Shown here: positions 4,636 through 11,571 of the stretch, piece after piece
Layout of the letters: each line of letters starts with the position of its first letter
Numbering within the stretch: position 1 is the stretch's first letter
Origin: an uncultured Amaricoccus sp.
GTDB taxonomy: Bacteria; Pseudomonadota; Alphaproteobacteria; Rhodobacterales; Rhodobacteraceae
DNA: 14,565 nucleotides
NCBI RefSeq assembly: GCF_937858865.1
Contig: NZ_CALLYO010000627.1
Coordinates: 1-14,565 of the forward strand
Direction of reading: 5' to 3'
Position numbers and translations under genes: made by a program
The notes under the pieces: generated by a model
The model's input: only the letters and a program-made list of their open reading frames with translations
Database searches by the model: none
Told to the model about the DNA's origin: nothing

Positions 4636-4722
4636 GCGGTTGTGGCGGAACTGGTAGACGCGCAGCGTTGAGGTCGCTGTGGGCTAACCCCCGTGGAAGT
4701 TCGAGTCTTCTCAACCGCACCA
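4636..4722 (+). tRNA. tRNA-Leu (anticodon GAG), CCA encoded
   Basis: An 87-nt class II tRNA. The acceptor stem GCGGTTG (4636-4642) pairs with CAACCGC (4712-4718), followed by discriminator A4719 and an encoded CCA (4720-4722). The D arm contains TGGCGGAACTGGTAGACGC, the pattern of bacterial leucine tRNAs. The anticodon stem CAGCG/CGCTG closes the loop TTGAGGT, giving anticodon GAG at 4670-4672, which reads CUC and CUU. A long variable arm (TGGGCTAACCCCCGTG region) and the T-loop TTCGAGT follow. CUC is a heavily used leucine codon in this genome, as seen in leuB. The gene lies 210 bp before leuB; no terminator is obvious between them. Confidence 0.97.
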
Positions 4723-8014: not shown

Positions 8015-9142
8015 TCATTCGCGGACGATGTCGATCAGCGGCTGGAAGGCATACATGGCCGGCCGCCGTCCTGCTCCCGGAGCGACCTGTACCAGCAGAC
8101 CTGCGTCGCGGAGCTTGCGCGTGATGTCCATCGCAACGTGTGGCGGTATGCCGCTGGAAGCGGTGAACCGGTTGTTCCTGAACGTCGGGTTGGTGAACAT
8201 GAAATCCACCGCGTCCATCGCCCAGCGGCTGTTCAGTTGATCACGGAAGCGCCCCTTCATCTCCTCGTGCAGCGCGAAGATGCGCGACATGGTGTTGATG
8301 TTCCTCCGCGCCTGCTCGCCAAGTGCCGAGAGGAAGAACATGCACCATTCCGTCCATTCTCCGTGCGAGGACACGCGTCGCATTCGCTCGACGTACTCGT
8401 CGCGCATGTCCTCGAACGCAGCGCTTACGTAGAAGTGGGGGGCGCGGATCAGCCGGTAGTCCCACAGCATCAGGGTGATCAGCATCCGGCCGATGCGGCC
8501 GTTGCCGTCCTTGAAGGGATGGAGCGCCTCGAACTCGACATGCGCGAGCGCGGTCTTCAGGAGGCTGTTGCGAGGATCGTCGTGCATGAAGGCGATCAGG
8601 CTCTGCATGCCAGCGGGTAGGCTCTCCGGGGAAATGGGTACGAAGGAGATGGATCTCCGCCTGCTGTCGCCAATGTAGTTCTGCTCGCTCTTGTAGGCAC
8701 CGGGCTCGAGGCTCGCCCCGCGGCCGTACGAGAGGAGGATCTGGTGCGCACTCCGGACCATGAACTCGGAAATCGGCTGACCGTCGGACATCTCGCGCTG
8801 GATTCGGCGCATCGCCCGCGCATAGAGGAAGGTTTCCACGGCCTCCGACCTGGCATTGGAGAAGGCCTCGGCGTCGCCCGCGTCCTCCTCGGCCTCGATC
8901 CGCAGGATCTCTTCGAGGGTGGAGAGGGTGCCTTCCATGCGCGATGAGACCACTGCCTCCTGGTTCCGCAGGGGCGCGAGCAGGATCTCCCCGTCGTGCA
9001 TGGACGCGAGCATCTGGTCATAGCGGGCGAGAGCGGCGGTCGCCTCGACGAGGGGATCGATCAGGCGCTCGTAGCCCAGGTTCTCGGGCGGAAATGCACC
9101 GTAGTGGTAGTGCACCGCCTTAGAGAGGTCGTGATGTGCCAT
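8015..9142 (-). CDS. Fic-domain protein (AMP-transferase) with built-in inhibitory helix and C-terminal winged-helix-like region
   Basis: Fic proteins usually transfer AMP from ATP to a hydroxyl side chain of a target protein. This 375-residue protein has the full core motif HPFKDGNGRIGR (208-219, catalytic H208). It also has the class II inhibitory motif S-x-x-x-E-G in SSRMEG (66-71), whose glutamate E70 would block the ATP gamma-phosphate site. An upstream flap-like segment is RRRSISFVPISPESLP (161-176). The C-terminal part, about 312-372 (FMFTNPTFRNNRFTASSGIP ... ITRKLRDAGLLVQV), looks like a winged helix-turn-helix, as I recall for SoFic-like family members. The start chosen is the ATG at 9142 with GGAG six bases upstream; a TTG 11 codons earlier is less likely. 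There is no separate antitoxin gene next to it. The gene is visibly less GC-rich than its neighbours, suggesting transfer. Seven copies of a half-site lie in its upstream region, one over the start codon. Confidence 0.95.
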   Translation of the reverse strand: MAHHDLSKAVHYHYGAFPPENLGYERLIDPLVEATAALARYDQMLASMHDGEILLAPLRNQEAVVSSRMEGTLSTLEEILRIEAEEDAGDAEAFSNARSEAVETFLYARAMRRIQREMSDGQPISEFMVRSAHQILLSYGRGASLEPGAYKSEQNYIGDSRRRSISFVPISPESLPAGMQSLIAFMHDDPRNSLLKTALAHVEFEALHPFKDGNGRIGRMLITLMLWDYRLIRAPHFYVSAAFEDMRDEYVERMRRVSSHGEWTEWCMFFLSALGEQARRNINTMSRIFALHEEMKGRFRDQLNSRWAMDAVDFMFTNPTFRNNRFTASSGIPPHVAMDITRKLRDAGLLVQVAPGAGRRPAMYAFQPLIDIVRE

Positions 9143-9296
9143 GTTGTGCTCCGAAGGGCCTTCCGGCCACATCAAGCCGCCTTGTAGTGGACGGGAGCAC
9201 GGCTAGCAAGCTTGATGTGCTCGGATCTGCCTTTTAGGCACAACAAGCCGCGTTGTTGTGTCCGGAAGCACGGCCATGTGTCTTGTTGTGCCCGGA
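9140..9296. repeat. Degenerate 71-bp tandem duplication with seven CACAACAAG-like half-sites upstream of fic
   Basis: Unit A (9140-9210) and unit B (9211-9281) align without gaps with 49 of 71 identical bases. A third partial copy (9282-9296) matches the first 15 bases of unit B in 13 positions. Each full unit holds a single half-site and a dyad CACAWCAAG-CCGC-STTGTWGTG (9168-9189 and 9239-9260). Half-sites on the fic-coding strand are at 9140-9148, 9181-9189, 9211-9219, 9252-9260 and 9282-9290, spaced 41, 30, 41 and 30 bp. Two inverted copies are at 9168-9176 and 9239-9247. The best copies are followed by CCGGAA or a variant of it. Such layouts suit cooperative binding of a repressor or activator; I infer an operator array controlling fic. 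Confidence 0.8.
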
Positions 9297-9314
9297 ACGC
9301 CTACTGCCAACGAC

Positions 9315-9340
9315 AAAGGCCCCGCGCGAGCGGGGCCTTT
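9315..9340 (-). terminator. Rho-independent terminator of the rpsO-pnp transcript
   Basis: A perfect 11-bp stem, AAAGGCCCCGC / GCGGGGCCTTT, with a 4-base loop. On the minus strand it reads A-rich flank, GC stem, then CCTTTG, as for a terminator whose T-run is within the stem. It lies 23 bp beyond the pnp stop and just upstream of the fic control region, so it would also insulate fic from pnp transcription. Confidence 0.88.
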
Positions 9341-9363
9341 GAAGGGTGGTAATGGATTGACGC

Positions 9364-11499
<2,136 letters not shown>

Positions 11500-11549
11500 G
11501 TCTCTTCCTTCGTATCGGCGGGGGGACCCCCTGGTCCGGCGCCGTGCAA

Positions 11550-11571
11550 CGCGGGGGCGCATTCCCCCGCG
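11550..11571 (-). promoter_or_regulatory. Hairpin in the pnp 5' leader, possible processing or autoregulation site
   Basis: CGCGGGGG (11550-11557) and CCCCCGCG (11564-11571) form a perfect 8-bp stem with a 6-base loop, about 50 bp before the pnp start. In E. coli the rpsO-pnp spacer forms a stem cut by RNase III that lets PNPase repress its own mRNA; this hairpin has the right place for such a role, but its length is shorter and the function is inferred. Confidence 0.4.

Follow-up and report, generated by a model that had tools for sequence, protein, structure and literature searches.

Self-repression by a protein that joins a Fic domain to a DNA-binding domain is already known. CccR of Yersinia pseudotuberculosis, a Fic toxin and T6SS effector, represses its own gene through a C-terminal helix-turn-helix (HTH) and needs to form a dimer to do so (PMC9755527). 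The footprint of CccR in its own promoter is one 46-bp site, AGATAATCAT-N26-ATGATAATCT, made of inverted 10-bp boxes (PMC9755527). CbFic2 of Coxiella burnetii binds DNA with its C-terminal winged helix, and binding alters both dimerisation and activity; the assays used random DNA, and the portions of the account cited here describe no operator or autoregulation (PMC10628234). DNA binding by SoFic had not yet been demonstrated as of 2023 (PMC10628234). EcSofic is a dimer whose C-terminal domain is important for its activity; leaky expression is suggested by its authors to be toxic, in which case tight control would be needed, and the role of antitoxin is assigned to AS1, a 47-aa protein encoded downstream (PMC12249575). 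Nowhere in the portions of that account cited here is the C-terminal domain described as reading the enzyme's own operator (PMC12249575).

The window, by which we mean the whole 14,565-nucleotide stretch of DNA analyzed here, carries a fic gene that can be compared with each of these systems. As in CccR, as far as the cited account describes it, a winged helix or HTH is fused to the C-terminus of the Fic protein and inverted repeats lie directly upstream of its own gene. Unlike CccR, with its two boxes 26 bp apart, the window has dyads with a six-base spacer standing 30 or 41 bp apart, and three to six such dyads are fitted across the subfamily; spacers of 6 and 26 bp differ by 20 bp, close to two turns of the helix, and the phase may therefore match that of CccR. 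Like CbFic2, the window's protein is a Fic enzyme with a C-terminal winged helix, here putatively DNA-binding. It shares with SoFic and EcSofic the plan of a Fic domain followed by a C-terminal domain, as well as the class II inhibitory motif, but is distant from SoFic in sequence: against the NCBIfam SoFic equivalog NF046030 it scores 117.6 bits, below the cut-off of 550, and is a relative and not the SoFic equivalog itself. Autoregulated type II toxin-antitoxin operons, phd-doc and hipBA among them, have a promoter overlain by repeated palindromes to which the operon's own product binds. In those operons the DNA-binding antitoxin is a separate protein; in the window a single polypeptide would be both toxin and repressor. 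In openly licensed PubMed Central papers we found no array of dyads alternating at 30 and 40 bp before fic, no conservation of a dyad array in the SoFic-like subfamily and no co-variation of helix and operator in Fic proteins.

The protein contains Fic_N and Fic domains, with HPFKDGNGR at residues 208-216 and the class II inhibitory motif SSRMEG at residues 66-71, and so carries both motifs that define class II Fic AMPylators (HPFxDGNGR and an N-terminal (S/T)xxxE(G/N)). H208, P209, F210, D212, N214, G215 and R216, together with S66, E70 and G71, are invariant in 30 sequences, and we classify the protein as a putative class II AMPylator of the SoFic-like kind. The PADLOC SoFic profile PDLC03963 matches residues 10-374 (E 1.1e-95), which points to a role in anti-phage defence; the best PDB matches are likewise SoFic entries (3EQX, 3ZCN, 9TC4, 9VJC). 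This fic is the sole strong SoFic match in the assembly, where one other place scores 4e-4. In an AlphaFold2 model built from 28 sequences (mean pLDDT 92.7, pTM 0.90), the C-terminal winged helix comprises helices at 308-317 and 323-329, a recognition helix at 334-346 and strands at 351-354 and 363-365. The family is large: of 8000 candidates that were scored, at least 4075 proteins had E <1e-50.

Directly before this gene, seven half-sites resembling CACAACAAG (at most two mismatches) occur in 9140-9296, compared with 0.76 on average, and never more than 5, in 1000 dinucleotide shuffles; this confirms the seven copies of a 9-base element counted in the first-pass annotation. The half-sites on the minus strand, that of fic, start at 9282, 9252, 9211, 9181 and 9140, in steps of 30, 41, 30 and 41 bp, and those on the plus strand lie at 9168 and 9239, 71 bp apart, which agrees with the spacing described earlier for both strands. 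Each dyad consists of a 10-bp arm, N6 and the inverted arm, with the core CAA-N6-TTG. Read in the sense of fic, the array runs from a half-degenerate dyad through a full dyad, a second half-degenerate dyad and a second full dyad to a half-site on the ATG (Table 1).

Table 1. Features of the fic locus and its upstream array (positions in the window; dyad centres relative to the fic ATG)
Feature	Position	Strand	Remarks
fic	8015..9142	-	375 aa; Fic_N + Fic, SoFic-like, C-terminal winged helix; proposed array reader
Winged-helix domain	8048..8221	-	fic codons 308-365; AlphaFold2 model
Recognition helix	8105..8143	-	fic codons 334-346; residues 336, 339 and 340 track arm positions 1-3
Half-site 5 (AGCACAACAT)	9141..9150	-	41 bp beyond dyad 4; overlaps fic start codon
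Dyad 4	9166..9191	-	centre -36; both arms good (TCCACTACAA / GCCACATCAA)
Dyad 3	9196..9221	-	centre -66; left arm AGCACATCAA good, right arm degenerate
Dyad 2	9237..9262	-	centre -107; both arms good (GACACAACAA / GGCACAACAA)
Dyad 1	9267..9292	-	centre -137; left arm GGCACAACAA intact, right arm degenerate
12-bp perfect inverted repeat	9314..9341		between pnp and array; probably the pnp terminator

The first-pass annotation had described the region as a 71-bp tandem duplication. The two 71-bp units do align without gaps, at 50/71 identical positions (the earlier count was 49/71), and the duplication is visible, but alternating dyads describe the unit better than a single duplicated operator does. 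Identity between the units is 25/31 in the arms and 25/40 at other positions, the latter indicating that an older duplication can be seen there too. With up to three mismatches, the window's dyad is found at two places in the 3.62-Mb assembly (92.6% complete), both in the fic upstream region; the array is therefore not a generic repeat, and a repeat family, the alternative raised beforehand, was rejected. An Rfam search gave no family at the array site, and a search of 9080-9380 for a sigma-70 consensus promoter was likewise negative. Among relatives, 25 upstreams with fitted centres at -56 and -26 have, by eye, a TTGNCA-N17-TANGNT-like pair around the dyad at -56, which is a putative promoter. 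The neighbouring pnp, also on the minus strand, ends at 9364. Elsewhere in the window, a tRNA gene (Rfam RF00005) lies on the plus strand at 4636-4719.

Relatives of fic were taken from genomes, named contigs (L031-L034), plasmids and viral contigs, the named close relatives being Rhodobacteraceae. The first set held 62 loci including the window's; without L077, L078, L089 and L091, which are truncated or have no usable start, it comprised 58 loci and 52 non-redundant upstreams. Autocorrelation of these 52 upstreams stood out at shift 70 in 39, shift 30 in 38, shift 40 in 27, shift 140 in 20 and shift 100 in 19, where shuffles gave a mean of 2.9 (sd 1.7). Five control segments from the same loci gave 0/51, 5/51, 2/52, 3/52 and 4/47 at shift 70, 1, 3, 2, 1 and 7 at shift 40, and 13, 9, 11, 5 and 9 at shift 30, multiples of three being favoured by coding sequence. 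A fixed fit of five dyads placed 48/58 upstreams above their own 40 shuffles and 46/58 above every control segment of the locus. In a flexible fit of three to six dyads alternating at 30 and 40/41 bp, with significance set at the floor of 100 shuffles, 58/61 upstreams of proteins at least 46% identical (the window's included) reached the floor, compared with 2/26 of those below 46%; the first 52 sequences had served to derive the geometry, and for them the 58/61 is not independent. Among fresh sequences of at least 46% identity, shift 70 was found in 8/8, and 21 more distant fresh sequences did not stand out at this shift; L093 and L098, counted as fresh, share genera with L080 and L085. In viral contigs, where 26 of 80 loci were fitted, the array geometry was found in 15/16 loci of at least 54% identity, nine of these 16 proteins being 95-100% identical to earlier ones, and in 2/10 loci below 46%.

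The relatives of at least 46% identity in which no significant array was found are L084, L056, L057 and L136, the last being the exception among the viral-contig loci. The 41-bp step of the window is common to L037, L038 and L031, and some fitted arrays extend to about -200. The array probably extends beyond Alphaproteobacteria, since array-bearing upstreams include those of a short, metagenome-assembled Opitutales contig (L033) and of a Riemerella plasmid (L120, z 4.5). The plasmid relatives come from nine records, and two other queries gave the same nine; a search of phage records for fic relatives gave no match. Two exact dyad patterns, sought in viral contigs as phage decoy operators, had 0 matches there, a weak test given that the array-bearing viral loci also lack those letters. 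In L034 (4980-5899) fic matches in separate pieces (best at residues 136-375) and looks disrupted, and its upstream still fits the array (z 6.3). In a distant branch (L094, L097 and L121, 38% identical) the fic upstreams carry other inverted repeats, of the TTGATGATCG and CGATCATCAA types, with a poor 30/40 fit; this branch may have arrays of another geometry.

The neighbours of array-bearing fic genes vary and include pnp, conjugation genes and a DUF6080 gene. In 13/87 loci pnp lies directly upstream of fic, namely in the window (9142-11562) and in L034, L037, L038, L039, L042, L055, L056, L057, L058, L059, L060 and L065. The fic proteins of these loci are 52-70% identical to the window's and fall into more than one clade; the 3' end of pnp is possibly a hotspot for fic insertion. 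The relatives in L118, L119 and L121 sit among plasmid conjugation genes, which suggests that the gene and its upstream sites travel.

While the geometry stays, the outer arm letters differ between relatives. The arm consensus is GGCACAACAA in the window, ACTACGACAA or GCTACGACAA in its nearest kin (L037, L038 and L031), CTGTCATCAA in L045 and many others, TGATTAACAA in L033 and CGAGACACAA in L082. The upstreams of orthologues therefore lack the CACAWCAAG dyad that the first-pass annotation would have looked for, an outcome that, read literally, it would have counted as refuting its proposal, but they have the same array geometry with arms of their own. The inner CAA-N6-TTG is nearly constant; the consensus used for co-variation took only arms with at least two of the three core letters CAA, so that this constancy is partly by construction, and an unfiltered consensus shows CAA in most rows. 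At the 70-bp period, the 58 array-bearing upstreams are identical at 1577/2560 arm positions (62%), compared with 254/768 of the six spacer bases (33%) and 417/1157 linker positions (36%). This difference argues that the arrays are shaped by selection on the arms and not by copying alone. The half-sites had been said to be better kept than the rest, which they are, and the CCGC spacer likewise, which it is not. The proposal made from the window, a duplication and then selection acting on a DNA-binding site before fic, is supported in both parts, and the site is more general than had been guessed. In L099 two nearly identical units are visible by eye, making duplication of 70-bp units a plausible route of array growth.

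Co-variation between arms and protein was evaluated by a partial Mantel test, in which the outer seven arm positions were compared with every 12-residue protein window after the whole-protein difference had been removed. The sample consisted of 30 representatives less than 85% identical, 11 of 66 fits having been left out for scores below 62; one representative with a single CAA-core arm (L059) was left out of the thinned sets. The nine best protein windows start at residues 328-336, over the recognition helix, with r up to 0.50, compared with a mean of 0.03 (sd 0.14) over all protein windows and a best value of 0.36 in residues 1-300. Permutation P, corrected for the choice of protein window, was 0.0005 with 30 proteins, 0.0005 with 29, 0.002 with 23 (75% thinning) and 0.02 with 19 (70% thinning). 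With 16 proteins (65% thinning) the recognition helix was still first, at P 0.11, and with 11 (60% thinning) it ranked twelfth, residues near 230 leading. It was also first when the SSAR group was removed (25 proteins, P 0.0005) and when the SSAR and HVAASM groups were both removed (22 proteins, P 0.004), and it was thus the best-tracking part of the protein in 7/8 protein sets. The best single residues are 336 (0.61) and 339 (0.56); residue 339 tracks arm positions 1 (0.60) and 2 (0.53), and arm position 3 is tracked by residues 336 (0.55) and 340 (0.50). Residues 367 (0.49) and 45 (0.47), outside the recognition helix, also track the arms and are unexplained.

Arms beginning with TG are found in 15/16 non-redundant proteins with R339 and in 2/20 without it (Fisher 5e-7, uncorrected for the tree). 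A tree-aware test, on a quick tree of residues 1-300 from 42 proteins, gave five independent pairs, of which 3-4 agree and 0 oppose; p is 0.125 at best, five pairs being too few for significance. The rule relating helix to arm was fixed before the viral-contig loci were examined, some of whose proteins are near-identical to earlier ones. Searches for relatives in further orders gave nothing beyond the loci of the existing set, which left the viral-contig loci as the test. The R339 proteins L124/L125, L133/L134 and L140 obeyed the rule, as did nine SSAR[A]L proteins, which share 95-100% identity with earlier ones. The rule failed for L126, where N339 predicted T at arm position 2 and the weak consensus is TGA; another N339 protein, L148, agrees with it on four arms only, and L127, whose S339 is outside the rule's coverage, has the arm CTG. 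The proteins of L126 and L117 are 91% identical and have the recognition helices APTARNLS and ASSARALS, and some arms that read CTG in L117 have TGA arms as their counterparts in L126. This is possibly a natural change of specificity, one that runs against the rule. A comparison aimed at near-identical proteins with a changed helix listed 20 pairs, all of them among distant relatives (<46%), of which L097 and L121 alone have upstreams at the array floor.

We consider 9141-9292 to be, with a probability of about 0.78, an operator array that is read by the winged helix of the Fic protein itself and that represses fic. The same geometry with different arm letters in each relative is what a self-recognized, diverging operator predicts, and the co-variation of helix and arm points to the Fic protein itself as the probable reader; the first-pass annotation had named no binder. 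Fic dimers would bind the dyads, each composed of two half-sites with lineage-specific outer letters and a nearly constant core. The distances between dyads, 30 and 40/41 bp, are near three and four whole helix turns, so neighbouring dimers could touch and bind cooperatively. Bound Fic would then reach from beyond the promoter, on its upstream side, as far as the start codon, and transcription of the toxic AMPylator would be shut off until the concentration of Fic drops. Physical binding, cooperativity and repression, as well as the toxicity and defence role of the window's Fic, are what we infer from these comparisons.

The array could instead be the operator of an unlinked regulator or nucleoid protein, with Fic not the binder at all. 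Many promoters are under unlinked regulators, binding of Fic to the array is deduced from sequence, co-variation is not significant once corrected for the tree, and the helix signal is gone at 60% thinning. However, the dyad is absent elsewhere in the assembly, so such a regulator would have one target. The arm letters shift under constant geometry and are best tracked by the Fic recognition helix in most protein sets, and arrays also occur on plasmids, including that of Riemerella, and on the Opitutales contig, with differing neighbours. For these reasons we regard an unlinked regulator as unlikely. Less probable still is control of translation or termination at the RNA level, by dyads that fold within the fic leader into hairpins with a 10-bp stem and a 6-base loop. 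Transcripts of an arm, six bases and an inverted arm could pair in this way, and the last half-site overlies the start codon, but no Rfam family matches the site, some arrays reach far upstream, many left or right arms are degenerate, the constant distances of 30/40 bp between centres fit DNA helix turns better, and co-variation with a DNA-reading helix would not be expected. A neutral 71-bp tandem duplication without function, which the identity of the two units even outside the arms might suggest, is very unlikely, given that the period is kept in relatives sharing no arm letters and that the arms are kept better than spacer and linker.

Self-repression through the array, our preferred reading, can be extended to a fuller proposal in which the array serves at once as DNA antitoxin, operator and infection sensor with a private lineage code, a reading that we consider improbable as a whole. 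Its 6-12 half-sites would keep much of the Fic protein bound, and inactive because DNA would occupy the C-terminal domain, which acts on the AMPylase domain. Were the array DNA damaged or competed for during phage infection, the toxin would be freed and fic derepressed at once. The private code would consist of residues 336/339/340 paired with arm positions 1-3, and, if real, would avoid cross-talk when fic genes move between genomes.

On the question of how SoFic-type enzymes stay silent and what triggers them, the array offers for one subfamily a testable answer: a phased row of operators recognized by the C-terminal domain of the enzyme itself. The combination of fixed spacing with changing letters and a few changing helix residues provides a natural data set for the protein-DNA code of winged helices. 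Likewise, dyads alternating at 30 and 40 bp provide a sequence signature by which autoregulated fic genes may be found.
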